Origin: Spirochaetota bacterium
GTDB taxonomy: Bacteria; Spirochaetota; Spirochaetia; Treponematales; UBA12059
Reading direction: 5' to 3'
DNA: 49,078 nucleotides
Assembly: GCA_018816345.1 (NCBI GenBank)
Contig: JAHIWG010000128.1
Location: 1 to 49,078 of the forward strand
Shown here: positions 1 to 16,477 of the stretch, piece after piece
Layout: every line of letters starts with the position of its first letter
Position numbering within the stretch: the first letter of the stretch is position 1
Notes under the pieces: generated by a model
Seen by the model: the letters and a program-made list of their open reading frames with translations, nothing else
The model's database searches: none
Told to the model about the DNA's origin: nothing
Program-made: the position numbers and the translations under genes

Positions 1-2082
1 AACGTACCGGTGGTGATAGCCAGGGGCGCCGCGTACTTCACCTCCATCGGCACGGAAAAGAGCCCGGGGACCAAGGTGTTCAGCCTCGTCGGCAAGGTCA
101 AGAACACTGGACTCGTCGAGCTGCCCCTGGGTACGCCCTTGGCCAATATAGTCTACGGCATGGGCGAGGGCGCCGGGGCCAAGAAGCGCATCAAGGCCGT
201 CCAGACGGGCGGCCCCTCCGGAGGCTGCATACCCGCCGAGCGTTTCGACGTCAAGGTCGACTACGAGTCCCTCGCCGAGCTCGGCGCCATCATGGGCTCG
301 GGCGGCATGGTCGTCATGGACCAGGACAACTGCATGGTCGACGTCGCGCGCTATTTCGTCGGCTTCACCTCCGCCGAGTCGTGCGGGAAGTGCGCGCCGT
401 GCCGCGAGGGCCTGTCCCAGATGCTGCGCATACTCAACGACTTCTCGCGCGGCGACGGCGGCATGGAGGACATAGCCGAGCTCGAGCGTCTGGCGCGCGT
501 CGTCAGGGACTCCTCGCTATGCGGCCTCGGCCAGACGGCGGCCAACCCGGTGCTGACGACGCTCAAGTACTTCCGCGAGGAGTACGAGCGCCATATCGTG
601 GAGAAGCGCTGCGAGGCAGGCACCTGCGAGTCGCTGTTCGAGGCCCTCTGCGAGAACTCCTGCCCGCTCCACATGAACATCCCCGGATACCTGGCGCTGG
701 TCGGCGACGGCCGTATAGAGGACGCCTTCGAGCTGACGCTCAGGGACAACCCCCTGCCCGGGTCCATGGGCCGCATCTGCCACTTCCACTGCCAGATGCG
801 CTGCCGCAGGGATACGCTCGACGAGCCGGTGGCCCAGGGCGATATCCATCGCTACCTGGCGGATACCATGTACAAGATGGGCCGGGAAAAGGACGTATGG
901 TCCAGGCTCGTCAAGGAGAAGAAGCCGGCGACGGGGCGCAAGGTCGCCATCGTCGGCGCCGGGCCCGCGGGCCTCGCGGCTAGCTTCTACCTGTCCAGGC
1001 TTGGGCACGAGGTTACCGTATTCGATTCCAAGCCCAAGGCGGGAGGCATACTCCGTTACGGCATCCCGGCGTACCGCCTGCCCAAGGACGTCCTGGACAA
1101 GGAGCTCGAGCTCTGGAAGAGGCTCGGGGTCAAGTTCGTGTTCAACACGGTCGTGGGCAAGGACGTCGCGTTCGACGCGCTGCGCAGCCAGTACGACGCC
1201 CTGATCGTGGCCGTAGGCGCCCAGGCCGACAGGGGCCTCGGCGTGCCGGGAGAGGACCTGGCCGGCGTGCACCCCGGCTACGAGTGGCTCGAGGCCTTCG
1301 CCCTCGGCAAGGCGGCCAAGCCGGGCAGGCGGGCCCTCGTCATAGGCGGCGGCAACGTGGCCATAGACGCCGCTAGGACGCTCTTCAGGCAGGACTGCGA
1401 GGTGACCGTCGCGTACCGCAGGGCCAAGAGGGATATGCCGGCCAACGACGCGGAGCTAGCCGGCGCCGAGGAAGAGGGCATACGCATGGAATTCATGCTC
1501 CAGCCCATCGAGATCGTCGGGGAGAAGGGCCGGGTCAAGGCCGTGCGCTTCAGGGCGATGAAGGCCGGGGGCATAGACCCCTCGGGGCGGCCGACGCCGG
1601 TGGAGACCGATAGGATAGTCGACATCCCCTGCGACGACGTCTATATAGCGGTCGGGGAGAAGGTCGACTCGTCGTTCCTGGCCGCGGACGGCGTCAAGGC
1701 CGCCAAGGACGGCCGCATAGTCGTGGATCGCCTGACCGGACGGGTCGGCGGCAACGTCTGGGCCATAGGCGACGCCGTGACCGGCCCGGCGACCGCCGCC
1801 GAGGCGATGGGGCTCGGGAAGCGCGCCGCGAAGGCCATAGACTCCGAGCTGATGCAGCGTGACGCGTTCGGAGGCCTCTTCAAGGATTTCAGCCATTCCA
1901 TGGCGCTTCCGCCGGAACCGTCGAAGATGCGCATGTGCCGGTCGCGGCTCGTGCCGCCCGAGGAGCGCCGCGGGAACTTCCAGGAGATAGCGATGGGCTA
2001 CTCGGGCGAGCAGGCGCTCGCGGAGGCCTCTCGCTGCCTGCGATGCGATATCAGGGCCGACGCCCGTAGCCCATGGCGATAA
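1..2082 (+). CDS. NuoF-like/GltD-like fusion flavoprotein, hydrogenase-associated electron transfer subunit (5' truncated)
   Basis: The frame is open from base 1, so the gene starts outside the window; the GTG at 10 is internal. About the first 200 visible residues are the C-terminal half of a NuoF/HydB protein: an SLBB-like region and the 4Fe-4S motif SCGKCAPCREG with the fourth cysteine in SSLCGLG. Next comes a GltD-type module: a cysteine-rich linker (CENSCPLHMNIPGYLAL, then C-x3-C-x3-C) and two Rossmann folds (VAIVGAGPAGLAA for FAD, ALVIGGGNVAIDAA for NAD(P)). It ends EASRCLRCD as GltD-type proteins do. It lies just upstream of the hydrogenase gene (2097), so I infer that it passes electrons between NAD(P)H and the hydrogenase, perhaps by flavin-based bifurcation. 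A NuoE/HydC-like subunit would be expected upstream, out of view. Confidence 0.88.
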   Translation, partial: NVPVVIARGAAYFTSIGTEKSPGTKVFSLVGKVKNTGLVELPLGTPLANIVYGMGEGAGAKKRIKAVQTGGPSGGCIPAERFDVKVDYESLAELGAIMGSGGMVVMDQDNCMVDVARYFVGFTSAESCGKCAPCREGLSQMLRILNDFSRGDGGMEDIAELERLARVVRDSSLCGLGQTAANPVLTTLKYFREEYERHIVEKRCEAGTCESLFEALCENSCPLHMNIPGYLALVGDGRIEDAFELTLRDNPLPGSMGRICHFHCQMRCRRDTLDEPVAQGDIHRYLADTMYKMGREKDVWSRLVKEKKPATGRKVAIVGAGPAGLAASFYLSRLGHEVTVFDSKPKAGGILRYGIPAYRLPKDVLDKELELWKRLGVKFVFNTVVGKDVAFDALRSQYDALIVAVGAQADRGLGVPGEDLAGVHPGYEWLEAFALGKAAKPGRRALVIGGGNVAIDAARTLFRQDCEVTVAYRRAKRDMPANDAELAGAEEEGIRMEFMLQPIEIVGEKGRVKAVRFRAMKAGGIDPSGRPTPVETDRIVDIPCDDVYIAVGEKVDSSFLAADGVKAAKDGRIVVDRLTGRVGGNVWAIGDAVTGPATAAEAMGLGKRAAKAIDSELMQRDAFGGLFKDFSHSMALPPEPSKMRMCRSRLVPPEERRGNFQEIAMGYSGEQALAEASRCLRCDIRADARSPWR

Positions 2083-2096
2083 GCGGAGGAGATGCG

Positions 2097-3869
2097 ATGA
2101 ACACAAACAACGCTACGGCGATAAAACTCACAGTCGACGGACGGGAGTCTACAATAGCCTCGGGCTCCACGATACTCGACGCATGCCGCTCGGCCGGCGT
2201 GCATGTACCCACGCTATGCCATCTGGAGGGCGTCTGCTCTAACGCCTCCTGCGGGCTCTGCGTCGTAGAGGTCGAGGGCGCCAAGAGCCTCGTGCGATCC
2301 TGCGTCCAGGCCGCCGCGCCCGGCATGAGGATCAAGACCTCGAGCGCCAGGGTCATGGAGGCCAGGCGCGCCGTCGTCGAGCTGCTCTTGGCCAACCACC
2401 CGGAGGACTGCCTGTCGTGCCTCCGCAACGGCTCCTGCGAGCTGCAGTCCGCCGCCGAGCTCATGGGCGTGCGCCGCAAGGCCTTCCCGAGCACCAAGAA
2501 GCCTTCGAAGCCCGATCGCGTCGGCTGGGGAGTGATGCGCGACAATGACAAGTGCATACTCTGCGGCCGCTGCGTGGCCGTATGCCGGGAGACGCAGTCG
2601 GTGTCGGCCATAGACTTCGTGGGCCGGGGCGTGCGCTCGCGCGTGGCTCCCTTCATGGATAGGCCCCTGTCGGAATCCTCCTGCGTCTCGTGCGGGCAGT
2701 GCACCGTCGTCTGCCCCACCGGCGCCCTTACCGAGAGGGACGAGACGGACGAGGTCTTCGCCGCCCTGCACGACCCCGAGCTAACCGTCGTCGTGCAGAC
2801 CGCCCCCGCCATCCGCGCCTCGCTCGGAGAGGCTCTGGGCATGGCCCCCGGAAGCCTCGTCACCGGGAAGATGGCCGCGGCGCTACGCCGCCTCGCCTTC
2901 GACCAGGTCTTCGACACCCAGTTCTCCGCCGACCTCACCATCATGGAGGAAGGCTCCGAGCTCCTGGCCCGCCTGGCGAACAAAGGCACGCTCCCGATGA
3001 TCACCTCGTGCTCGCCTGGGTGGATCAGCTTCATTGAGACGTTCTACCCGAATCTCCTGCCTCACCTGTCGTCGTGCAAGTCGCCCCAGCAGATGTTCGG
3101 CTCCCTGGCTAAGACCTACTGGGCCCAGAAGGCCGGCGTCGACCCCTCGAAGGTGGTCGTCGTGTCTATCATGCCCTGCACCGCCAAGAAATTCGAGGCC
3201 AAGCGCCCGGAGATGCGCAGCGCCTGGGAATGGTGGGGCGAGAAGGGCAAGAAGGACTCGCCGTACTTCGACGTGGACTTCGCCCTCACAACCCGCGAGC
3301 TGGCAAGGATGATCAGGCGCGCGGGCATAGACTTCGAGTCCCTGCCGGAGGAGAGCTTCGACGACCCCCTGGGCTCCAGCACGGGCGCCGCTACCATCTT
3401 CGCCGCGACCGGCGGCGTGATGGAGGCCGCCCTGCGAACGGCCTACGAGATAGCCGTGGGCAAGCCCCTCCCGTCCCTCGAGCTCGAGGCGGTGCGCGGC
3501 TTCGACGGCATCAAGGAGGCGTCCGTGGACGTCGGCGGCACCGTGCTCAAGGTGGCCGTCGCGCACACGCTCAAGAACGCCAGGGTCATACTCGAGGGCA
3601 TCGCGGCTGGCACGAGCCCGTACGCCTTCGTCGAGATCATGTCGTGCCCGGGCGGTTGCCTCGGCGGCGGCGGGCAGCCCGTCGCGCCGGATTGGGCGAA
3701 GAAGGAGAAGCGCCGCTCGGCCATCTATACGGAGGACAGGGGGCTCCCGCGGCGGAAGTCGCATGACAACGAATCGGTCAAGGCCTTGTACGCCGAGTTC
3801 CTCGAGAAACCGCTAGGGCACCAGTCGCACGTCCTGCTCCACACGCACTATACAAAAAAAGATACATAG
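2097..3869 (+). CDS. hydA: [FeFe]-hydrogenase catalytic subunit, multi-cluster (HydA)
   Basis: Catalyses reversible H2 oxidation/proton reduction in the cytoplasm. The ATG at 2097 is preferred over 2073 because GGAGGA (2085-2090) sits 6 bases before it. Order of modules: N-terminal 2Fe-2S ferredoxin domain (CSNASCGLC), His/Cys-ligated 4Fe-4S (HPEDCLSC), two 4Fe-4S motifs (CILCGRCVAVC and CVSCGQCTVVC), then the H-cluster domain with L1 TSCSPGW (residues 304-310), L2 MPCTAKKFE (from 359) and L3 EIMSCPGGCLGG (cysteines 517 and 521). The C-terminus matches the hydrogenase small-subunit domain and ends in LLHTHY. The usual L1 motif is TSCCPxW; the second cysteine, the proton-relay residue in studied enzymes, is serine here. 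The upstream flavoprotein gene suggests an NAD(P)-linked complex. Confidence 0.95.
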   Translation: MNTNNATAIKLTVDGRESTIASGSTILDACRSAGVHVPTLCHLEGVCSNASCGLCVVEVEGAKSLVRSCVQAAAPGMRIKTSSARVMEARRAVVELLLANHPEDCLSCLRNGSCELQSAAELMGVRRKAFPSTKKPSKPDRVGWGVMRDNDKCILCGRCVAVCRETQSVSAIDFVGRGVRSRVAPFMDRPLSESSCVSCGQCTVVCPTGALTERDETDEVFAALHDPELTVVVQTAPAIRASLGEALGMAPGSLVTGKMAAALRRLAFDQVFDTQFSADLTIMEEGSELLARLANKGTLPMITSCSPGWISFIETFYPNLLPHLSSCKSPQQMFGSLAKTYWAQKAGVDPSKVVVVSIMPCTAKKFEAKRPEMRSAWEWWGEKGKKDSPYFDVDFALTTRELARMIRRAGIDFESLPEESFDDPLGSSTGAATIFAATGGVMEAALRTAYEIAVGKPLPSLELEAVRGFDGIKEASVDVGGTVLKVAVAHTLKNARVILEGIAAGTSPYAFVEIMSCPGGCLGGGGQPVAPDWAKKEKRRSAIYTEDRGLPRRKSHDNESVKALYAEFLEKPLGHQSHVLLHTHYTKKDT

Positions 3870-5050: not shown

Positions 5051-6967
5051 ATGAGACGTATCGCCGCGACAGCAATAGTCGCTTCCGTCCTATTCGCTTC
5101 ATGCACGCTAACCACCACCCCGCCCGTCCTCTCTTCCGCGGGCGAGCTCGAGTCGTTCCAGGGCTCGTACATGACCACCTTCGACATACTGAACGGCTCG
5201 TTCCTGCCCTCGGGTCGCGCGCTCTCGCCGTTCGGAAGCGCCGCCTCCCCGCCCGCTTCCGTGTCCAAGGCCACGGTCCCTACCTGGGGCTCGACGTCGT
5301 ACGCCCTGCCCTCGACGGTCGGCGCCTCGTTGACCGGCTCGAGGGCCAATTACCCCGAGCCCGGCCAGAGCACGAGCTGGACCGTCACGAAGACGGCCGT
5401 ATCAGAGGTGTACGACGTCAGAGTCACAACCACGTTCGCTGATTACGACCCTCGAGAGAGGCAAGAGGAATGGTACTATATCAGGAACGTCAACGACGCT
5501 ATCTGGACGAACGCCGATCCTATCTGCACCGCCGCCGGGGTCGATGACGCTAAGGCCCGGACGAAGAACGCCCTCACCTATCGCGACGGCAGCGTCCAGG
5601 ATGAGACTATTGTCGCGGCCTTCCCTCCCGGATCCGGCTTCGCCGCCTTCGACATAGCCGGCAGCCTCGAGTACCCCGAGGCCTTCGCGCCCGTATCGGA
5701 CGCCGCCGCCCAGTGGTCGTCGGTAGTGGCGTACTCCAGGGTGTACGCTGACAGCCCGAGCTTCAGCTTCTGGAGCGGCAACAGGGTTCGCGCCATCGTC
5801 GGGGTCCGCTTCTACACCGAGCATTTCATCAACGGCGGGGCCCAGCTCCAAGGCAGCACGCTGGTCTTCGAGAAGGCGGCCACGAGCCTTACGTCCCAGT
5901 CGGGGGACGTCCTCGATCCCGGTTCCGCGTTCTTCCTCCCCGATATCGCCTCCAGCCCCGATCAGGCCTACCTGGCCCTGAGCGTCGTCAGGCAGAAGAT
6001 AGTCTACGATTACGACGCGGCCACCCAAGCGCCCGCCTACGACAGCGCGACGCGCGACGCCCGGACCAAGACGCGCGTGATCGGCATAGCGAATCAGCAG
6101 GATAAGTACGTCGAGATAATTAACGCCGAGGCCGCCGAGATAACGAACGCTACCGGTACGATATGGATCCCTATCGGCTACGACCCGGCCATCGTCAACC
6201 TCGACACGGCGGTCACCGTGGACACGAAGACGACCAACCTGGCCGTCAGCACCACCGACTCGACGCCGGTCGAGGTAGTGACCGATACCCCGATCAACGG
6301 CGCCGGGACGCTGTACGCGGCTATTAACGGCACGCCTATCGAGACCCTCGTGACCAGCGACATAACCAGCGACCTGCTCGACGGCAACGGGTCTAACATC
6401 GTGGCTACCTATAACGGCAAGCAGGGCACGCTCGTGGACTCGACCGCGTACGCGTTCAACGACAAGGGCACGGTCCAGGCCTGGGTCTACGTCAAGAAGA
6501 CCGTCGACACGCCCGGCCTCGTTCACGCCGGCGTCCTGCCGGATTTCTCCGACGAGATATGGACGCTGCAGTTCCTAGGCAGCAACAACACGCCCGTCTT
6601 CGCGCTCGTCGCCCAGGGGCCTAGCGGCTATACCTACGACATGGTGAAGAGCTCCGAGCGGCTCAACCTCGAGCGCTGGTACCACCTCGCGGCCACCTGG
6701 AGCCGCGCCGACGACTCCATGAGGATCTACGTCAACGGCGTGCTCAGGGGATCGAGGTCGCTCTCGAACATCCGATCAAGCTCCGTGTTCGCCCAAGGCT
6801 CCAAGGTGGTAATCGGCTCGCAGTTCTATTCGTCTAAGACGTCGTTAGCGGGCTACTACGGCTTCAACGGAAAGATTAACGGCGTGCTTATCGATAACTA
6901 CGCATGGTCGTCCGCGGACGTCGCCGCGTTCTACGGCGCCAATAAGGACAAGACGGCTAGCTGGTAA
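5051..6967 (+). CDS. Secreted lipoprotein with C-terminal LamG/concanavalin-like domain
   Basis: Start chosen at 5051: GGAGGAA lies 5-6 bases upstream and the protein then begins with a lipoprotein signal peptide (MRRIAATAIVASVLFASC, lipobox FASC with the lipidated cysteine at residue 18). The long middle part is Ser/Thr/Asp-rich, beta-type sequence that I do not recognise. From about residue 458 to the end (638 aa) there is a clear LamG-like jelly roll, with GTVQAWVYVKK, RWYHLAATWSRADDSMRIYVNG and a closing INGVLIDNYAWS. Such domains bind glycans or proteins. It faces the pel-like operon tail to tail and is the only surface lipoprotein at that locus, so it might act as a polysaccharide-binding surface factor; this is inference. 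It does not look like PelC. Confidence 0.85.
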   Translation: MRRIAATAIVASVLFASCTLTTTPPVLSSAGELESFQGSYMTTFDILNGSFLPSGRALSPFGSAASPPASVSKATVPTWGSTSYALPSTVGASLTGSRANYPEPGQSTSWTVTKTAVSEVYDVRVTTTFADYDPRERQEEWYYIRNVNDAIWTNADPICTAAGVDDAKARTKNALTYRDGSVQDETIVAAFPPGSGFAAFDIAGSLEYPEAFAPVSDAAAQWSSVVAYSRVYADSPSFSFWSGNRVRAIVGVRFYTEHFINGGAQLQGSTLVFEKAATSLTSQSGDVLDPGSAFFLPDIASSPDQAYLALSVVRQKIVYDYDAATQAPAYDSATRDARTKTRVIGIANQQDKYVEIINAEAAEITNATGTIWIPIGYDPAIVNLDTAVTVDTKTTNLAVSTTDSTPVEVVTDTPINGAGTLYAAINGTPIETLVTSDITSDLLDGNGSNIVATYNGKQGTLVDSTAYAFNDKGTVQAWVYVKKTVDTPGLVHAGVLPDFSDEIWTLQFLGSNNTPVFALVAQGPSGYTYDMVKSSERLNLERWYHLAATWSRADDSMRIYVNGVLRGSRSLSNIRSSSVFAQGSKVVIGSQFYSSKTSLAGYYGFNGKINGVLIDNYAWSSADVAAFYGANKDKTASW

Positions 6968-6989
6968 CAGCAAGGCCGCGAAAACCCAG

Positions 6990-7016
6990 GCCGCCGGCCG
7001 GTCCGGCGGCTTTCTT
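6990..7016. terminator. Terminator between the lipoprotein gene and pelG
   Basis: GCCGCCGG (6990-6997) pairs with CCGGCGGC (7003-7010) over a 5-base loop and is followed by TTTCTT on the + strand. It sits between two convergent genes. On the - strand it is followed by a TTTT further on, so it may serve both. Confidence 0.75.
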
Positions 7017-8391
7017 ACGCCCTGAGCGCGCGCATGAAGATGATGCGCTCCATGCGGTAAATACGGTTCTTGAGCGTGGCGTACCCGAAGGCGCTCGCGC
7101 ATAGCCCGGCCGCGAGGTGGCTGGCTCCAGGGGGCAGCCACGGCAGGAGGCCGTAGGCGATGACCGCTCCCGCCCCATTGATGGCGAAGTACAGGAGCGC
7201 CGCAAGGAGCGCCTCGCGGTATAGCTCGAAATAGTACAGGAACACCAGTATCGTCAAAAGCGTGAACTGGGCGTACGCGGCGCCTAGGGCCGCCCACATC
7301 TCTACCCTGGCCAGCGCTGGCTCCCGAGACGCGAGGATGGCCGACGCCAGGAGCAGCGTGCAGGCGCCCTGGAGCAGGCTCTGGTCGCGCAGCTCGCGGC
7401 GGAGCCCGGTAGCGACCCGTAGCCTCGCCTTATGTATCCTCGTCCACGTCGAGTGGTTCAGGGCGAAGAGGAAGTGCCTGAGGTCGGTATACAGCTGGGT
7501 CTCGGTGATGATGATGAAGTAGACGAGGCCCGGTATGATGGAGAGCCCGGCTACGTAGACGGCGACGTCGTAGCTCTCGTACGACCTCAGGGGCGTGCCC
7601 GCGACGACGGCGCCCCTGGCGGCCCAGAAGTAGAATTTATCGAGCCACCCGCCGGCGTAGAAGCAGAAGCCGGAGGCGATGAGCGCGGCGTAGCGCTTCC
7701 CGTAGCGCCAGAAGTCGGCGAAGCCGTCCCGTGGACGTTCCGGGCGGTAACGCGATACCGCTATCGCGATGAACGCGAGGTCTAGGAGGACTACGCCGGA
7801 GGCGTAGCCGAGCACCGCCCCGCCCTCGCCCAATACCGCCGATAGCACTAGCGCGCCGGCGATTGACAGCGCCATGCCCAGGCCGAAGACGAGGCTTATC
7901 ACCTTATAGTTTCGCAGGAGCGACACGTAGAGCATCACTATCCAGGCTACGTTGATAGCGCAGAACAGCGCGACTACGGAGAACCGGTACAGCGCGGCGT
8001 CCCCGGCGAGCCGTAGCGGCATCGCCGTCGCTACGGGAGCTGACAGCAGGACTGAGGACGCGAGCGCTATGAGCGCGAAGCGTAGCATCCAGGCCGTCGC
8101 CTCGCCGTAGCGGCTTTCCCATACCAGGTCCGAGACTATGCGCGTGAAGTGATGATGCAGGCCCGAGAAGAGGGCGAGCGAGCAGGCGTAGCCGTAGACC
8201 ACGGTAGACTGGAACACGGGCACGCCCGAGAAGCTCGAGGTCCTGAAGGCGAACTGCAGCGCTATCATCGACACGACGGAGATGAGCCAGGGGCCGGCTA
8301 CTATGAAGACGCCCGAGACGACGGCTCCGACCGTTCCGCCGAGCCCTCCCTTGCCCAGTATCTTCCTGAGCTGGAATCCTATGCCCGCCAT
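7015..8391 (-). CDS. pelG: PelG-like polysaccharide transporter
   Basis: Inner-membrane protein of the Wzx/MOP flippase type that, with PelF, PelD and PelE, synthesises and moves Pel exopolysaccharide across the cytoplasmic membrane. The N-terminus (MAGIGFQLRKILGKGGLGG) is characteristic of PelG and is followed by about 12 hydrophobic segments over 458 residues, the usual PelG length. The typical central stretch with FYFWA, LRSYESYD and SIIPGLVYFII is present. It is last in the leftward operon pelD-pelE-pelF-pelG. Its ATG shares one base with the pelF stop codon (TGATG), which suggests coupled translation. Confidence 0.93.
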   Translation of the reverse strand: MAGIGFQLRKILGKGGLGGTVGAVVSGVFIVAGPWLISVVSMIALQFAFRTSSFSGVPVFQSTVVYGYACSLALFSGLHHHFTRIVSDLVWESRYGEATAWMLRFALIALASSVLLSAPVATAMPLRLAGDAALYRFSVVALFCAINVAWIVMLYVSLLRNYKVISLVFGLGMALSIAGALVLSAVLGEGGAVLGYASGVVLLDLAFIAIAVSRYRPERPRDGFADFWRYGKRYAALIASGFCFYAGGWLDKFYFWAARGAVVAGTPLRSYESYDVAVYVAGLSIIPGLVYFIIITETQLYTDLRHFLFALNHSTWTRIHKARLRVATGLRRELRDQSLLQGACTLLLASAILASREPALARVEMWAALGAAYAQFTLLTILVFLYYFELYREALLAALLYFAINGAGAVIAYGLLPWLPPGASHLAAGLCASAFGYATLKNRIYRMERIIFMRALRA

Positions 8392-9785
8392 CAGCCCCCT
8401 CCCCTCATGGAGCGGTATAGATCGCGGTAGCGGTCCTTCATGTCCTTCTTGTTATACAGGGTCATGGTCTTGCGCTTGTTACGCTCGTTAATACCTATCA
8501 TCTCTTCGGGATGGTCGTGGACGAACAGCACCGCCTCCGCGAGCTTCCCGGGATCCTTCGACGGGGCCAGGAAGCGCTCGTCGTAGTCGAGCATCTCCGG
8601 GGCGTTGCCGACCTTGGTGCATATCGACGGCACGCCCGCGGCCCAGCCCTCGAGGATGACCAGCGGCTGCGCCTCGCGCACGCTGGTCAGCATCATGACG
8701 TCGAGGAACGCGTAGTACTCGAGGACGTCCTGCCTACCCGTGAAGACGAACCTGTCGGCGATCCTCAGGTTGTCGACGAGGGCGACGCATTCCTCGTGGT
8801 AGTCGGGATCCTCGTCCGTCGGGCCGATCGCGTAGAACGTAGCGTCGGGGATACGCTCTAGGACTATCTTGGCTACCGATATGAACGTCTTCACGTCCTT
8901 GATGGGCACGATGCGCCCGACCAGTCCTACGTGGAAACCCGGACGAGGCGACCTGGCCACGGACGAGTAGCGCTCGACGTCTATGCCGTTCTGGATGACG
9001 AGGCAGCGTTCGGGCTTCGCCCCTAGCTCCAGCTGCTTCTGCCTGTTCTCCTCGAATAGCGCCGTGATCATGTCGGCGTTCCTGTAGCACATGGCGCTGA
9101 TGCTGTTATAGATGTTGATCCACATGTCCCGCTGGTAGCCCTTGACGAAATCGGCCTTGCGGATCTCCATCTCGCGCTCCTTGTGGTACAGGCCGTGCTC
9201 GGTCAATAGGAGCGGCTTGCCCTTGGCGGCCTTGGCGTTCAGGGCGGCGAGCCCGGCGAACCCGGTCGAGATCGCGTGGTAGATATCGGCCTCGGGAGGA
9301 TCGGAGCCCAGCGCCTCGAACATCATGCGATGGGCGGACTGCCAGGCCCAGAAATAGTCGGAGAAGGCGTAGGCGGGATTGCGCCTCATGTTCATGCCGG
9401 ACAGCATGCTCCAGGCCCGCCCGTCCTCGAGCAGACCGTTACCCAGCTCCCGCGGCCTCGTCCTCGCCGCCAGCAGCCCCATGATGTCGGGCGCCCGATC
9501 CTGGAACATCATCGCATGCAGCTCGAGGACCGCCTTGACGACGCGCTTGCCCGGCCGGCGCTCCCGTCCCGCGCGCGGGGCCGACAGGACGACGTCGCGA
9601 TGCTCCACGACGTTCGGGGGCAACGCGTACCGCAACGGCTGGTCGGCCTTAGGCGAGAGCGAGAGTATGCAGAAATCTACGTCCGGCAGGCCGCCGATGA
9701 TATCGTGCACCCAGGCCCCGACGCCGCCGGTAATGTACGGGTACGAGCCCTCGAGTATCATGCAGACCCGCAAGCGCTCACTCAC
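8391..9785 (-). CDS. pelF: PelF-like GT4 glycosyltransferase
   Basis: Cytoplasmic glycosyltransferase expected to polymerise the Pel polymer from UDP-sugars. The protein begins SERLRVCMILEGSYPYITG and continues GGVGAWVHDII, the PelF N-terminal signature. It also has TEHGLYHKERE, the nucleotide-sugar region VIQNGIDVERY, and a C-terminal GT4 domain with ILEGWAAGVPSICT. The GTG at 9785 is chosen because GGGGAG lies about 6 bases upstream and homology starts there; an ORF running to 9857 would add a low-complexity extension. The start overlaps the end of the pelE-like gene by 8 bases. Length is 464 residues, a little shorter than the Pseudomonas enzyme (about 507). Confidence 0.93.
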   Translation of the reverse strand: MSERLRVCMILEGSYPYITGGVGAWVHDIIGGLPDVDFCILSLSPKADQPLRYALPPNVVEHRDVVLSAPRAGRERRPGKRVVKAVLELHAMMFQDRAPDIMGLLAARTRPRELGNGLLEDGRAWSMLSGMNMRRNPAYAFSDYFWAWQSAHRMMFEALGSDPPEADIYHAISTGFAGLAALNAKAAKGKPLLLTEHGLYHKEREMEIRKADFVKGYQRDMWINIYNSISAMCYRNADMITALFEENRQKQLELGAKPERCLVIQNGIDVERYSSVARSPRPGFHVGLVGRIVPIKDVKTFISVAKIVLERIPDATFYAIGPTDEDPDYHEECVALVDNLRIADRFVFTGRQDVLEYYAFLDVMMLTSVREAQPLVILEGWAAGVPSICTKVGNAPEMLDYDERFLAPSKDPGKLAEAVLFVHDHPEEMIGINERNKRKTMTLYNKKDMKDRYRDLYRSMRGGG

Positions 9786-10533
9786 GGCAGGCTCCCCGGG
9801 TCCAGAACAGCTGCGGCTCGTCGAAGGAATCCGGCGAGCCGGCGGCGGGGCCGCCAAGGCGCTCCAGGTTGCCTATGACCTCCCTGATCCTCTTCCTCGC
9901 GAAGGCCAGCTTCGCCGCCGCGAGCCTCAGCCTCCTATTCTCGGGCCATCGATCGAGCGCGGCCCTGGACACCTTGGCCGCAAGCTCGAACTCACGGCGG
10001 TCCATCAGGATCTCCAGGTAGACGGCTATATCCAGGTCGGGATCGACGAGTATCCTCCGGTTGTCCACGAAGAATCTCCTGGCCTCGTCCAAGTAGAACG
10101 AGCCGAGCACGGGGAACGAGGAAAAGAGCCTGGCGAGCGTCCTGTACTCGGCTATGACGGCGCGGCGGGGCGGGGCGCTCCTATCGGAATCGAGCTTCTT
10201 CCGGAGGGCCTGGACTCGTTCCACGAAGCGGCGCTCGAGCGCGTTCACGCTCTCGGCCGCGAAGAGCGCCAGCTCCTTGTCCTTGCTCTTGACCATGCGG
10301 CCGAAGACCGTCATGAGGAGGGCCGCGGTGTCCGCGTCCAGGTCGCTCTTCGCGAGCAGGCGGTCTATCTCGCGCACGTCCCAGGGCTCTTCCAGGATGG
10401 GATGTATATTGACGGCCAGGTAGATGTAGTACTCCGGGCTGAGGATGCCCTCGGAATAGCCGCGCAGCGCCTGGGCCTCGGTCTTGGGGATGAAGCCGGT
10501 CTTGGAATGCAGCAGCGTCCTGAAGTCGCGCAT
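9778..10533 (-). CDS. PelE-like helical-repeat protein without membrane segments
   Basis: Sits exactly where PelE is found between pelD and pelF in many Pel loci, and in the same operon. The 251 residues are almost entirely alpha-helical with TPR-like character (for example REFELAAKVSRAALDRWPEN). Pseudomonas PelE has two N-terminal transmembrane helices before its TPRs; none is visible here, since the protein opens MRDFRTLLHSKTGFIPKTEA. It may be a soluble scaffold joining PelD to PelF. The start has GAGG about 8 bases upstream, and the gene begins 10 bases after the pelD stop. The name rests on position and fold type, not on recognisable sequence identity. Confidence 0.65.
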   Translation of the reverse strand: MRDFRTLLHSKTGFIPKTEAQALRGYSEGILSPEYYIYLAVNIHPILEEPWDVREIDRLLAKSDLDADTAALLMTVFGRMVKSKDKELALFAAESVNALERRFVERVQALRKKLDSDRSAPPRRAVIAEYRTLARLFSSFPVLGSFYLDEARRFFVDNRRILVDPDLDIAVYLEILMDRREFELAAKVSRAALDRWPENRRLRLAAAKLAFARKRIREVIGNLERLGGPAAGSPDSFDEPQLFWTRGACRE

Positions 10534-10543
10534 GCCGGCGTCC

Positions 10544-11947
10544 TCATATCCTCTGGACGGAGAGCAGGTACTCGGCCGCCGTTATCATGCCGTCCGCGCC
10601 GGCGACCGCCTGCGCCGAGGTGCTGAAGCCGACGATCAGCTCCACGGGCATGCTCGTCCCGTCTATCGCGAACTGGTATTCCGAGAACATCGAGAGGAGG
10701 TCCAGGCAGAAGAACGACGTCCCGTCGTGGTCGAGGTCGTAGATGATCAGCACGAGCTGGGAGTCTTCCTTGAAATGGAACGCCTTCGACTTCATCTTCT
10801 TGACCCGGTCGATATCGTCCTTGAGGGAGAAGAGCATCCGCTTGAGCCGCTCCTTGCTCCAGCTAGCGAGGAGCTCCTCGAAGTTGCTTATCTCCAGTAT
10901 GACGAGCGAGACGAAACCCGGCTCGTGGGAGATGCGCTCCAGGTCGGCCGATATCGTCCTATGGAATATCGAGAACAAGGGGTAACCGGTATCCGGGTCG
11001 ACCTCGCTAAGAGAATTCAGGGTCTCGTACTCGGTTATCTGCCTCAGGTACGGCTCCGCGAGGCTGAGGAGTATGGCGAGGATGGTCTCCGAGTACTGCG
11101 AGTACCGCTCGAACGGCAGGTCCTCTATGTCTATCACTCCCCACGACTTGGAGCCAATGACTATGGGCATGGTGATTATGCTGCGGTTATCCGAGAAGCG
11201 ATCGAACTCCGAGTTGTCAAGGAGCATGCGTACGGAGAACGGCTTGCGGTTGCGGAACACGTAGCCCTCTACGGAGGTCTCCGGGTCGAGCGTGACGTCG
11301 CGCCTCGCGCCCTCAGCCCAGCCGTAGGTAGCCGCGGGAACCAGGCGCGTCCCGGCGCCGTCGAGCCTCCATATCGAGCCGGAACTCATCTCGGTGAACA
11401 GGGCGACGGTCTCGAGCACCGTTTCCAGCGCCTGATCGAGATTGAGCGACGCCAGCTTCTTGACCTGGTCGTGCAGGATAGTAATCGAGTCCTTCTGGGA
11501 CGAGACGCGCCCCTCGAGGACCCGGTTGACCTTCTCCAGGACCTCGTTCTGCTTCCTCATCTCCACGGCCTTATGGACGGCGCCTCTAAGCCGCTCGAGG
11601 ACGCTACCCCGGAATAGCGTCATCCTGTCCCTCGTGAAGGCGATGCCCAGGGCCGCGGCCGCCGATAGGAGCATGAGGCTAGCCGAGCCCAGGCCGGGAA
11701 GGGCCGGCGCGACTCCAAGCGCGAAAAAGCGCGCCGCCGCGCCTAGCGCCACGGAGAACGCGAACGAGCCTAGACCCCAGCGGATTCCGTTGAAGGCCGT
11801 GATTACGGGGAGCAGTATTAGGTAGGGCGCGAGCGACAGGCCCCACATTGAGCTCAGGGCGAGGTCTACGGCCGCTGGAATAGTCGAGGCGATACCAAGC
11901 TCTATTAATAACGCGCCGGACGATTGCCGTCCGCGTAATGCTCGCAT
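10544..11947 (-). CDS. pelD: PelD-like membrane GAF/degenerate-GGDEF regulator
   Basis: In characterised Pel systems PelD is the inner-membrane c-di-GMP receptor that activates polymer synthesis. Here residues 10-110 contain about four hydrophobic helices, 115-160 a helical linker, 165-300 a GAF domain (EMSSGSIWRLDG, TMPIVIGSKSWGVIDIEDL) and 310-467 a degenerate GGDEF domain. The GGDEF signature position reads EDSQL (394-398), so it cannot be a cyclase. The inhibitory-site RxxD expected nine residues upstream reads MKSK (385-388) in my hand alignment. It is first in the operon. No Shine-Dalgarno sequence precedes the ATG, so the start is uncertain. It diverges from the PelB-like gene across only 56 bases. 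Confidence 0.85.
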   Translation of the reverse strand: MRALRGRQSSGALLIELGIASTIPAAVDLALSSMWGLSLAPYLILLPVITAFNGIRWGLGSFAFSVALGAAARFFALGVAPALPGLGSASLMLLSAAAALGIAFTRDRMTLFRGSVLERLRGAVHKAVEMRKQNEVLEKVNRVLEGRVSSQKDSITILHDQVKKLASLNLDQALETVLETVALFTEMSSGSIWRLDGAGTRLVPAATYGWAEGARRDVTLDPETSVEGYVFRNRKPFSVRMLLDNSEFDRFSDNRSIITMPIVIGSKSWGVIDIEDLPFERYSQYSETILAILLSLAEPYLRQITEYETLNSLSEVDPDTGYPLFSIFHRTISADLERISHEPGFVSLVILEISNFEELLASWSKERLKRMLFSLKDDIDRVKKMKSKAFHFKEDSQLVLIIYDLDHDGTSFFCLDLLSMFSEYQFAIDGTSMPVELIVGFSTSAQAVAGADGMITAAEYLLSVQRI

Positions 11948-11951
11948 ATTA

Positions 11952-11980
11952 TTAACATCGGTATCGCGAACGTCTAAATA
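11952..11980 (+). promoter_or_regulatory. Possible promoter of the PelB-like gene
   Basis: TTAACA (11952-11957), a 17-base spacer and TAAATA (11975-11980) lie in the 56-base divergent gap. The -35 is one base from consensus; the -10 is weak. The pelD promoter must lie in the same short gap on the other strand, so one regulator could control both directions. Confidence 0.4.
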
Positions 11981-12003
11981 AAGGCGTATGCATCGGAGGA
12001 GTC

Positions 12004-15000
12004 ATGAAAAAGGCGACGACGGCGTTCCTATTCGCGGCGATGGCGACTATAGCCGCGCCTCGATCCGACGCGCAACAGACCACGACCGAGGCGCGATTGG
12101 AGCCTATATTCCCCGATACGCCGCAAGGCCTCCTCTGGATCGAGGCCGAGGACGCCGTCTCGACTAACTTCGCTAGCGAGGCGACCCTCGACTACGGCTC
12201 CTCAGGATTCCGGATCCTGCAGCTAAACGCCGACGGCAAGTCCGGCTCCGCCCCGTTCTACGCGGAGTACTCGTTCGCCGTCGACTCCGCCGGAACCTGG
12301 GACCTGTGGATCGGGGGGACTCCCCCAGGCCCGAGGAGCGAGCTCGACGCCTCGTTCGTCTCCCCGCTGCGCTATTCCCTAGACGGCGGCGAGCCTATCG
12401 CCCTGTACCGGGAGGACGTCGCCGTCAACGAGCGCTACTCCACGACCAACTACTGGTTCGTCGCGTCAGCGCCCCTGGAGCTCGCGGCGGGGGTGCATAC
12501 GATCAGGTTCGAGGTGAGCGAGACCAGGAAATACGACTCCCGCTTCTATCTCTACCTGGACGCCTTCTTCCTCGTCGACCGAGGCTCGTCGGCGGCCGCC
12601 GCCCCCCGATCGTCGCTGCCGCCCCGATTCCCGAGGGACATGGCCGACCGTAGCATAGACCAGGCCTACCTCTCGATCCCTCGCTACGAGTACTATATCC
12701 AGGGCGATCCCAAGGACCCCGACAGGTACCTCCTATTAGCGCAGGTCTACAGCCTGATCGGCGACAACGGCAGCGCCATCAAGACGCTCGCCAGAGGCAG
12801 GGTCGTCGCGGGCGACGACATACGGTTCACGCTCCAGGCGGCCAAGTCCAGGATGTGGAGCGGCGAGATAGACGAGGGGCTCAGGCTATATCGCGAGTAC
12901 CTCTCGTCTCCGGGGGCGGATCGGGAGGTCTGGGCCGAGGCCGCGAAGATCAGCGCGTGGCTCATGCGGTACCGCGAGGCGGAGGCCCTCTACGAGGAAG
13001 CCGTGCGGCTCTTCCCGGGCGACGATACGCTACGGGTCAATCAGGCCCTCACGCTGCTCTGGGCGGGAAAGGCCAAGCAAGGCGAGCGGCTCCTCGCGGA
13101 GCTGTGGGCCGAAGCCCGGGACGACCCCGACCGCGTCTTATCGCTAGGCGGCATCTACCTCGTCAGCGGATATCCCGACAAGGCCATAGGCGCCTGGACC
13201 GACGGCATAGAGCTTTATCCCGACCGGCTGGAGCTATACTTCCGCCTCGCGGAGGCCTACGACAGGACCGCCCGCCCCGAGCTGGCGCGCGACGTCATAG
13301 CCCTCGCGCAGGGCCGCTTCGTTCCCTCCCAGCGCCTGTCGGAGTCGGTGGCGGCTTTCGAGCGCCAGTCCGGGCTCAGGGTGCTCGCGCTAGAAGGGTA
13401 CCGGGCGCGCCTCGAGCGGAACCCCGACGACCTCGACCTGAGGGAGCAGCTCGTCCGCGCCTATGCCTGGAACGGCATGCTCCAAGAGGCGCTCGAGGAG
13501 AGCGGCGACGTCCTCGTCAATAAGCTTTACGCGATATTCGCGGGCCTCGACGGCGACTTGGCGGAAACCTATAGGCTCCTCGACCTCGCGTCGGTATACG
13601 AGGCGCCCGTGGCCACCGTCGCCGCCGAGGCCTCCGCTGCGTCCGGCGCGCTCAAGAAGGACGCCGAGGCGTTCAGGCGCGCTAAGGCCAGGCTCGAGCA
13701 GGCGCTCAAGGGCAAGGACGCGAAACGGCTGGCGAAGGCGGAATCAGACCTAGCGTCGGCGGCGGAGGCCTTGGCCGGGCGCCTGGCCGAGGCCGCCGAG
13801 CTGACCGACAGGGCCGATTGGGCGTTCTCCGGGGCCGAGGACCTTATAGGCGCCTCGGTTACCGAGGCCGCCTCCGAGGGAGCCGACGCGCAGATGCTCT
13901 CGAGGCTCGCGCCGTGGACCTGGGACATGAGCGCGGACCTGGACTTCCTGTCGCGGCGCGCCTCGGAGAACCCCCTCGCCTGGTATTGCGCTACTAAGAT
14001 ACTCATGTTCGAGGGCAAGGGCGCGCCGCCGCCCCCGCCGGCGGGAAGGCTCGCGGGAGCGGATACCTTGAGGCTCCAGGCCGGCCTATGGTCGACGGGC
14101 GAGCTGGACGAGGATGCGTTCTCCGCCGCCGACTGGTACGGCCGGGGAGACGAACTGGCCGCGGCCCTAGCCTCGCTGGCGAAGGGAGAGGTCGGCGCTC
14201 CGCCCTCCGGCGAGGCCCTCGCCTCCCTCGCCGACGAGGCCTCGGCCGGCCTGACGGCGCTTTCCGCGCGAGGCTCGCGGGCCGCGGCCGACCTGCGATC
14301 GGCGAAGGCCTCGCTCCTGGCCAGGGCCCGGTCGCGGATGCGCGCGCGAGCGTACCAGTACGACGGGGAGACCCAGCAGGACAGGCGCGCGCTAGCCGAC
14401 ATGTACCTGAGGCTAGGCAAGCCCGAGGAGGCCGTGAAGGCCCTCTCGCGCGTCCTGGCCATCAACCCCAGCGACGCGGCCTCGCTCTTCACGCTGGGCA
14501 GGGCGAGGGAGACGAGCGGCGACTGGCACGGGGCGATGGACGCCTACGGCACGGTCTACGACCTCAATCCACGCTACGAGAGCGCCGTCTCTTCCTATAA
14601 CCGCCTCGCGGGAATCCACGCCCCGAGCGTCTCCGCCGCTATAACGACCGTCGTCGATACCGCGCGCTCGTCGGAGACGGCGCGTCTCGAGTATACGGCT
14701 CCGCTCGGAGGGGCCATGGAGCTGCGCTCGTCGTACGCCGTCGATAGGAAGAAGATCCACGCGCCCGCGTCCGGCGCGTTCCCGGCGTCGATGACGCTCC
14801 ATACCCTCGAGGTCCAGGTCCCCTTCTCCGTCGCGGGCACGGGAGCGAGCATCCTGGGCATAGCCGGCGGCACGGCCCAGAACAAGCTGGATAACTTCCT
14901 TCCGCCCGCGATCGGCGATCTCTCGCCGGAGAGCGTGGCCGACTACGTCGTCGTCGCCCCGCGGCTCGGCGTCGGCGCGACGTGGAAGGGCGGCGGCTTC

Positions 15001-15633
15001 GACGTCTCGGCGCTGTATCGCTTCAACCAGGTCGAGGACACCTTCTTCGCCGACAGGTCGGTGTTCTACGGCCACCACGGCGCGACCGAGGCCGGGTTCT
15101 ACGGCGAGACCGCCGCGAGGCAGCTCGCGAGGAGCCTCGGCGTACGGGCCAAGGCCGGGCTGTCGTGGATCTACTCGCCGTACGCTCAGGCGGGCGCGGC
15201 GCCTAACCTGCTCACCTCGCTAGCCGCCGAGGCCCGGGTCGGGAGCCTCCTGGCCGCGTCCCCGTCGACGACCCTCGACCTGTCGGTCTCGGCGTCGTGG
15301 GAAGACGCGAGCGCGACGGCAGACGACTACTGGGCTCCGCCGGGCATACTCTCCGTCAAGGGAGGCCCCTCGCTCGCGGCGCGCTTCGGCTCGCCGGAGG
15401 GCTCGGAGGTATCGGTCGCGACCCGCCTCTGGCCGGGGCTGTACTCCGCCGAGGGCGATGGCAGGCTTTCCTTGGACGGGGAGCTGTCGCTCGGCTTCGC
15501 CAAGCGCGGCCTGAGCCTATCGCTCTCCGTCGCTGGAGGCTGGACCCAGGCCACGGCGACGGCCGCCCAGTACTGGTCGGGCTCCGTAGGCCTGGGCCTG
15601 AAGGCGGCCGTAGGGGATTACATCATCCCGTGA
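12004..15633 (+). CDS. PelB-like outer-membrane exporter: CBM-like domain, TPR array and C-terminal beta-barrel
   Basis: Starts at ATG 12004 with GGAGGA at 11995-12000. Residues 1-24 are a Sec signal peptide (ending RSDAQ). Residues 44-192 resemble a CBM6/35-type carbohydrate-binding module (LWIEAEDAV, closing FYLYLDAFFLVD). TPR-like helical repeats cover about 215-500, an Ala/Glu/Lys-rich helical region 540-800, and a further canonical TPR pair 798-862. From about 878 to 1209 the sequence alternates in the manner of an outer-membrane beta-barrel with many aromatic and glycine residues. PelB of Pseudomonas is a TPR protein with a C-terminal porin, so this is a plausible analogue that exports the polymer. 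The N-terminal CBM is not part of PelB as I know it. The last residues (YIIP) are not the usual terminal aromatic. Confidence 0.72.
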   Translation: MKKATTAFLFAAMATIAAPRSDAQQTTTEARLEPIFPDTPQGLLWIEAEDAVSTNFASEATLDYGSSGFRILQLNADGKSGSAPFYAEYSFAVDSAGTWDLWIGGTPPGPRSELDASFVSPLRYSLDGGEPIALYREDVAVNERYSTTNYWFVASAPLELAAGVHTIRFEVSETRKYDSRFYLYLDAFFLVDRGSSAAAAPRSSLPPRFPRDMADRSIDQAYLSIPRYEYYIQGDPKDPDRYLLLAQVYSLIGDNGSAIKTLARGRVVAGDDIRFTLQAAKSRMWSGEIDEGLRLYREYLSSPGADREVWAEAAKISAWLMRYREAEALYEEAVRLFPGDDTLRVNQALTLLWAGKAKQGERLLAELWAEARDDPDRVLSLGGIYLVSGYPDKAIGAWTDGIELYPDRLELYFRLAEAYDRTARPELARDVIALAQGRFVPSQRLSESVAAFERQSGLRVLALEGYRARLERNPDDLDLREQLVRAYAWNGMLQEALEESGDVLVNKLYAIFAGLDGDLAETYRLLDLASVYEAPVATVAAEASAASGALKKDAEAFRRAKARLEQALKGKDAKRLAKAESDLASAAEALAGRLAEAAELTDRADWAFSGAEDLIGASVTEAASEGADAQMLSRLAPWTWDMSADLDFLSRRASENPLAWYCATKILMFEGKGAPPPPPAGRLAGADTLRLQAGLWSTGELDEDAFSAADWYGRGDELAAALASLAKGEVGAPPSGEALASLADEASAGLTALSARGSRAAADLRSAKASLLARARSRMRARAYQYDGETQQDRRALADMYLRLGKPEEAVKALSRVLAINPSDAASLFTLGRARETSGDWHGAMDAYGTVYDLNPRYESAVSSYNRLAGIHAPSVSAAITTVVDTARSSETARLEYTAPLGGAMELRSSYAVDRKKIHAPASGAFPASMTLHTLEVQVPFSVAGTGASILGIAGGTAQNKLDNFLPPAIGDLSPESVADYVVVAPRLGVGATWKGGGFDVSALYRFNQVEDTFFADRSVFYGHHGATEAGFYGETAARQLARSLGVRAKAGLSWIYSPYAQAGAAPNLLTSLAAEARVGSLLAASPSTTLDLSVSASWEDASATADDYWAPPGILSVKGGPSLAARFGSPEGSEVSVATRLWPGLYSAEGDGRLSLDGELSLGFAKRGLSLSLSVAGGWTQATATAAQYWSGSVGLGLKAAVGDYIIP

Positions 15634-16477
15634 TGAGGTTCTGGCACTCCTGGTAGAATTTATCCGCCTGGAGGCGCTCCAGGTACTCCGCCTGGTACGC
15701 CTCCACCCAGGGGGCGTCGAGGCCGAGATAGATCAGCAACGGGTCTAGGAGGGACCAATCCTTGGGATCGTCCGCGAAGTAGAACCAGTTGCCGGCTATG
15801 AACGCGCTTACCGAGACGACGAGTATCACCTTCTTCCAGCTCGAGGTGATATTCGCGTTGCCGTGCTCCTTGGCGCAGTCCGAGTATACTTCCGGGAAGT
15901 GCCACTTGGTGAGGATCTCGCTGCCTATATCCCTATGAGTCGTCCCGTACGCCGCCGCCTCCAGCTCGCTGAAGCGGAGGCCGTTCCTCGTAGCCTCGTC
16001 CGCGAGCGCCTCGTACCGAGCCGGGCCGTGCAGGAATAGCGCGACCTGGCCGATGTTGTGGAGGAGGCCCGCGATGAACGCCTCCTCGGGGAAACCTGCG
16101 CCGAGCTTGACCGAGAGGTCCCGGGCTATGAAGGCGGTACCGAGGGAATGCCTCCAGAACGAGGCGTAGAACCGAGAGCCGGTGTTCTGGTTGAACAGGC
16201 TGGATCCGGTTACGAGTATGACCACGTTCTTGATGGTGTTTATGCCGAGCAGCGTCATCGCGCCCTGGAGCTTCGTCACCCTGTTCTGCCGGGCGTACAT
16301 GGCCGAGTTGGCTATCTTAAGGATCTTGGCCGTCAAGCCCGGATCCGCGCTTATGATGTCCTCGAGATTCTTGAAGCTGTATTCCTGCTTCTCGACCATC
16401 TCGAGCACCTTGGCGGCGATGCTAGGATTGACGGGGAGGCTCTTGAGGTACGACGCGTATTGGCTAGGATCGCTCAC
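15623..16477 (-). CDS. HDOD-domain signalling protein
   Basis: HDOD proteins are HD-GYP-related regulators that usually lack phosphodiesterase activity. The 284-residue protein fits: SLPVNPSIAAKVLEMVE near the N-terminus, ISADPGLTAKILKIANSA, then ALTLLG-like and FWRHSLGTAFIARDL, followed by FIAGLLHNIGQVAL where an HD enzyme would read HDIG. The only in-frame start is GTG at 16477. It has no Shine-Dalgarno sequence, but TATGAT lies exactly 6 bases upstream, so a leaderless transcript is likely. Its 3' end overlaps the PelB-like gene tail to tail by 11 bases. A role in regulating the neighbouring Pel locus is possible but unproven. Confidence 0.85.
   Translation of the reverse strand: MSDPSQYASYLKSLPVNPSIAAKVLEMVEKQEYSFKNLEDIISADPGLTAKILKIANSAMYARQNRVTKLQGAMTLLGINTIKNVVILVTGSSLFNQNTGSRFYASFWRHSLGTAFIARDLSVKLGAGFPEEAFIAGLLHNIGQVALFLHGPARYEALADEATRNGLRFSELEAAAYGTTHRDIGSEILTKWHFPEVYSDCAKEHGNANITSSWKKVILVVSVSAFIAGNWFYFADDPKDWSLLDPLLIYLGLDAPWVEAYQAEYLERLQADKFYQECQNLITG

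Follow-up and report, generated by a model that had tools for sequence, protein, structure and literature searches.

A Pel-type exopolysaccharide locus from a spirochaete clade in which no PelA deacetylase is found

The reference point for any Pel locus is pelABCDEFG of Pseudomonas aeruginosa, in which PelD, PelE, PelF and PelG form an inner-membrane module and PelB joins a TPR scaffold to a 16-strand barrel (9h80). This PelB begins with an N-terminal membrane helix, and the lumen of its barrel is negative and suited to cationic Pel (PMC12141448). P. aeruginosa needs deacetylation to export Pel (PMC10269871), and Bacillus cereus needs the deacetylase PelADA for biofilm (PMC13254593), the layout in B. 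cereus and in other Gram-positive loci being pelDEADAFG (PMC7112168, PMC13254593). Streptococcal PelD lacks the entire GGDEF domain, yet is counted as Pel (PMC7112168). Outside the Pel systems, the secretins PgaA (PNAG) and BcsC (cellulose) also combine TPRs with a 16-strand barrel, and SadB of Pseudomonas is an HDOD protein that binds c-di-GMP and is associated with a polysaccharide and surface-attachment system (PMC6543031).

The locus described here lies in the window, a stretch of 49,078 nucleotides that is one contig of a 3.8 Mb spirochaete MAG, 96% complete. It shares with P. aeruginosa the PelD/E/F/G module and a PelB with TPR scaffold and 16-strand barrel, and with the B. cereus type the order D-E-F-G. 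Unlike P. aeruginosa, the window genome has no PelA that could be found and no recognisable PelC; its PelB carries a predicted signal peptide and a CBM6-like tip in place of the N-terminal membrane helix, its PelE has no transmembrane segments, its PelD has no RxxD I-site, and HDOD and LamG genes are attached to the locus. Compared with the B. cereus layout, the window has lost PelADA and has an outer-membrane secretin, whereas spirochaete relatives retain a PelA of the same DUF2194 type. The locus thus has recognisable PelF, PelG, PelD, PelE and PelB, and it is a Pel variant rather than a canonical Pel locus because PelA is missing from the genome assembly.

The original prediction was of a Pel-type locus in a spirochaete, with a single leftward operon made up of pelD, a pelE-like gene, pelF and pelG and flanked by genes for a LamG lipoprotein and an HDOD regulator, and profile searches and profile alignments bear this out (Table 1). 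PelG scores 263 bits against PF16933, where the cut-off is 29, and its gene adjoins pelF, whose product also matches DUF3492 (E 2e-70). The true start of pelF is probably some 70 bases downstream of 9857. The hairpin after pelG is weak evidence of a terminator, since terminator-like matches are no commoner in this region than in shuffled sequence. Elsewhere in the window, and unrelated to pel, the genes at 10-3869 resemble, from their translations, an iron-only hydrogenase with an NADH-linked subunit.

Table 1. Features of the pel locus and its flanks, in window coordinates
Feature	Position	Strand	Description and evidence
LamG lipoprotein	5051..6967	+	Surface lipoprotein whose C-terminus is a Laminin_G_3 (ConA-like lectin) domain; lipobox LFASC with the ATG at 5051 as start; convergent with pelG; PF13385 E 5e-17
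Terminator-like hairpin	6990..7010	-	Directly after pelG; 8 bp all-GC stem and T-rich tail; consensus match only
pelG, inner-membrane exporter	7015..8391	-	PF16933 E 7e-78, positions 1-452 of 452
pelF, GT4 glycosyltransferase	8391..9857	-	NF038011 PelF equivalog 325 bits, cut-off 100
pelE, soluble helical-repeat protein, no N-terminal TM segments	9778..10533	-	hhalign to PelE
pelD: TM region, coiled coil, GAF, degenerate GGDEF without RxxD I-site	10544..11947	-	Model, Foldseek, alignment
Divergent pelD/pelB intergenic region, 56 bp	11948..12003	.	One weak sigma-70-like match on each strand
Spirochaete pelB: signal peptide, CBM6-like domain, TPR scaffold, 16-strand outer-membrane barrel	12004..15633	+	AlphaFold model, VIA-align
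PelB N-terminal beta-sandwich, CBM6/GH115_C-like	12112..12594	+	Conservation, weak profile matches, phylum distribution
PelB TPR/helical periplasmic scaffold	12676..14616	+	Pfam TPR matches; helices in model
PelB 16-strand beta-barrel	14626..15609	+	16 predicted strands; PDB structural matches
HDOD-domain regulator, conserved neighbour of spirochaete pel loci	15623..16477	-	PF08668 E 6e-52

The curated models do not reach PelE and PelD, which have diverged too far; both were identified by profile alignment, PelD also by structure. In Pfam, PelE gives weak TPR matches only, but hhalign matches its profile to the C-terminal part of PelE from both Clostridium (E 3e-9) and Burkholderia (E 5e-7). 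No transmembrane segment is predicted, the two membrane segments of those proteins being missing from it. PelD does not match the Pfam PelD_GGDEF model, but aligns with Burkholderia PelD across the membrane part and the GAF and GGDEF regions (E 5e-5); its AlphaFold model (pLDDT 84) retrieves the P. aeruginosa PelD crystal structures 4eu0, 4etx and 4euv in Foldseek at E ~6e-9, and in this predicted structure the TM-GAF-GGDEF fold is retained. None of 29 spirochaete PelD sequences has the RxxD c-di-GMP site at the aligned I-site position, and a conserved FH[YF]KE-x-[NS]Q turn occupies the place of the GGDEF motif. The missing RxxD does not decide Pel membership, because the streptococcal proteins without a GGDEF domain still qualify.

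Signalling by c-di-GMP is likely to be present, as suggested by the 28 GGDEF matches in the window genome. An HDOD gene occurs in 33 of the 56 pel loci examined, a set in which contig ends truncate many loci, and it is the first gene of the colinear operons that include PelA. The window protein differs from SadB in that no YbaK-like domain is found and in that it is encoded inside the pel locus, and its putative c-di-GMP role is read from the likeness of the two. By this analogy, we hypothesize that the HDOD protein, and not the PelD I-site, may carry c-di-GMP or another signal.

The arrangement of the locus is neither chance nor an assembly artefact, because it is seen again in dozens of spirochaete genomes. 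It had been called rearranged, and relative to the PelA-bearing relatives, most of which read HDOD-D-E-F-G-B-PelA in one line, the term is apt; within the window's own PelA-less clade, however, the divergent order is the standard layout. What looked like a PelF-PelG fusion (G063) was discarded as a spurious long frame, because the open frames reported for its two domains differ in length (521 vs 958 aa) and so are not a single frame. Four spirochaete loci (L023, L024, L033, L034) are second loci with pelF and pelG, no recognisable D or E and an adjoining HDOD gene, in families that also carry a full pel locus; in L023, the one scanned, a GAF-histidine-kinase gene is adjacent as well. On a plasmid of Sulfitobacter indolifex (L054), pelF and pelG accompany a Wza-like protein of the polysaccharide biosynthesis/export family, an endo-alpha-1,4-polygalactosaminidase and galE, a gene content that suggests a Pel system using another export route.

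The 1209-aa protein encoded divergently from the operon was at first taken for a giant secreted protein standing in for PelB, and here the prediction has to be revised. Its AlphaFold model (pLDDT 87, pTM 0.74) consists of a CBM-like beta-sandwich, then a long TPR scaffold, then a 16-strand barrel. Foldseek alone returned mostly eukaryotic TPR proteins for it, so that a second structural alignment was required. Aligned against the PDB with VIA-align, the barrel matches PgaA best (4y25, Z 26.2, 278 residues, 2.3 A), followed by PelB (9h80, Z 22.8) and BcsC (6tzk, Z 22.6); other barrels reach 19 at most, and the top three are the three known exopolysaccharide secretins. The protein differs from PgaA and BcsC in being tied to Pel synthase genes, not a GT2 synthase, and in its N-terminal CBM-like domain. 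PF24604, the Pfam PelB barrel model, matches neither this protein nor any genome of the window's family, though the model matched no control genome either. Each Pel-positive genome has one such protein, and its gene adjoins PelA where PelA exists. On the modelled structure, then, the window PelB shares the fold of known PelB at a far remove in sequence, and the giant protein is a PelB-type secretin used across spirochaetes and not a foreign substitute.

The N-terminal domain is the most conserved part of this PelB: its alignment columns average 57% identity, those of the protein as a whole 29%. In a 198-genome sample of the phylum it is found once each, at E <1e-50, in 13 of the 14 PelG-positive genomes, and weaker matches occur in only three other genomes. 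A sequence search of the PDB gave nothing significant for this domain, and its profile matches are weak: CBM_6 in 6 of 29 members (best E 0.018) and GH115_C (best E 4e-4). It may serve as a carbohydrate-capturing tip. In one spirochaete family (f15), pelB is not beside pelDEFG; in four genomes it directly precedes PelA in the same orientation, the pair forming a separate two-gene module (G007:C12, G032:C43, G057:C75, G122:C19). In two spirochaete families (L035 8126-13162; L109 284-5317), PelB continues past the barrel with CHU_C/FlgD-like repeats and then an OmpA peptidoglycan-binding domain, and the gene before it encodes a lipoprotein with TPR and SLH-like parts. At L097 (13207-16104), the PelB place is taken by a TPR protein of 965 aa whose N-terminal domain resembles a GDSL lipase; that genome has PelA elsewhere.

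PelA and PelC had been noted as missing from the window, and indeed neither gene is in it. Burkholderia PelC has no significant Pfam family usable as a search probe, whereas PelA could be followed through the phylum. Spirochaete PelA is a DUF2194 (PF09960) deacetylase of the PelADA type, about 800-890 residues long; operons of the Paenibacillus type likewise encode a DUF2194 protein, placed between E and F, an order matching the B. cereus layout (PMC7112168). Among the 198 genomes, DUF2194 exceeds its cut-off in 10 of the 14 that have PelG and in none that lack it. The four exceptions are the window genome, two others of its family and one 88%-complete MAG. No DUF2194 was found in any of 23 genomes of the window's family, 10 of them Pel-positive (PelF present). 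A further 30 named Pel-positive genomes gave DUF2194 in all six known-positive controls and in four others, with 20 negative. A direct protein search for Pseudomonas-type PelA was negative in five genomes of the family and positive in control records, and neither this type nor PF09960 is present anywhere in the window genome assembly. PF03537 (GH114) was dropped as a PelA probe; it was negative in the window genome, but left Burkholderia PelA unmatched too.

A tree of PelF and PelG places the window in a 27-row clade (UFBoot 100, SH-aLRT 99), with the PelA-bearing lineages branching outside. All 26 tested members of this clade are negative for DUF2194 PelA, including genomes 96-99% complete in 20-175 contigs. 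The simplest reading is a single old loss of PelA, plus one or two further losses elsewhere. What remains is under purifying selection, dN/dS between related PelA-less loci being 0.03-0.24 for D, E, F, G and B, with the exception of 0.40 for one PelG frame called too long.

The reading preferred here, at a probability of about two in three, is that the locus encodes a working Pel-type synthase-dependent system that has lost its dedicated deacetylase and whose polymer would be exported closer to neutral. PelF would polymerise an amino sugar in the cytoplasm, presumably from UDP-GalNAc as judged by homology, and PelD, PelE and PelG would move the chain across the inner membrane. In the periplasm, the CBM6-like tip of PelB may capture the chain, the TPR scaffold would guide it, and the 16-strand barrel would export it. 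Without PelA, the polymer would leave the cell more fully N-acetylated; the LamG lipoprotein may keep it at the cell surface, with control by c-di-GMP or another signal through the HDOD protein rather than the PelD I-site. It can reasonably be inferred, as the original prediction had it, that such a polymer would be chemically different.

The PelB barrel offers a rough test of this preferred reading. The net charge of residues predicted to face inward averages -6.8 in PelB of PelA-bearing genomes and -2.6 in PelA-less ones, and is 0 in the window, in a comparison that guesses the inward register, spans two phylogenetic contrasts and has two deviating sequences, the deepest PelA-bearing ones. 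A lumen closer to neutral in the predicted PelA-less barrels agrees with a more neutral polymer. The LamG protein, which has the lipobox LFASC, would anchor such a polymer at the surface. A LamG-type protein stands beside the pel operon in 16 of 56 loci (the window and 15 others), none from a genome testing positive for PelA, and PelA-bearing loci have no LamG within the flanks examined; these occurrences are clustered on the tree, with only 2-3 independent pairs and no statistical power alone. A stronger form of the argument is that this clade exports a fully N-acetylated, uncharged Pel by way of a CBM-tipped PelB whose barrel is near-neutral, that the LamG lipoprotein holds this polymer at the surface, and that Pel export needs neither deacetylation nor the PelD I-site. 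This we put forward tentatively, as a possibility somewhat against the odds.

Because P. aeruginosa and B. cereus need deacetylation, a system without PelA must either differ in export or get help from another enzyme. The polymer might, for example, still be deacetylated by a protein not recognised as PelA and encoded elsewhere, such as a CE4 propeller protein or some esterase yet to be described. The export requirement in P. aeruginosa (PMC10269871) speaks for this, as does the one CE4 (PF01522) protein found in the window genome, a beta-propeller fusion. PF01522 proteins of similar length, however, occur in Pel-positive and Pel-negative members of the family alike, and the propeller protein was rejected as a pel-linked substitute because Pel-negative relatives have a counterpart too; nor was any recognised modification enzyme found in the pel loci of the clade. 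Help from such an enzyme is therefore judged unlikely, though it is the alternative that survives best.

A less likely account is that PelF has switched its sugar donor, so that the polymer is unrelated to GalNAc Pel and PelA was lost with nothing left to deacetylate. Loss of PelA across a whole clade while PelF stays under selection is what such a switch would produce. Against it, the window PelF lies more than threefold above the PelF equivalog cut-off, and the GT4 motif residues R315, K320 and E395-x7-E403 are invariant in spirochaete PelF from PelA-bearing and PelA-less members, donor specificity itself not being readable from sequence.

Since the genomes compared are MAGs, the absence of PelA might instead reflect incomplete assemblies or divergence beyond the reach of the profile. 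One PelA-less locus (L090, genome G047) hardly differs in PelF and PelG from another whose genome has PelA (L091), and its contig stops at the operon; single absences may for this reason be assembly gaps. But a gap recurring in every tested member of the clade, near-complete genomes among them, is improbable, the more so as PelA adjoins pelB in most colinear PelA-bearing loci and other genes fill that place in PelA-less loci with long flanks. That the locus is decaying and its polymer no longer made, as loss of an enzyme essential in the model systems might imply, is highly improbable given the low dN/dS of the pel genes, their open frames and a gene order kept across many genera.

Loss of the dedicated deacetylase from a working system, the preferred reading, bears on a general assumption. 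Pel has been thought to require a deacetylase for its exit from the cell, and its positive charge has been tied to adhesion in biofilms. The present locus extends Pel systems to the spirochaetes, on which a literature search taking in few subscription journals found no Pel paper, and adds a PelB whose carbohydrate-binding-like tip is new and a PelD that lacks the known c-di-GMP site. A clade that keeps the other core Pel parts under selection and has dropped the enzyme would be a natural test of the deacetylase rule.
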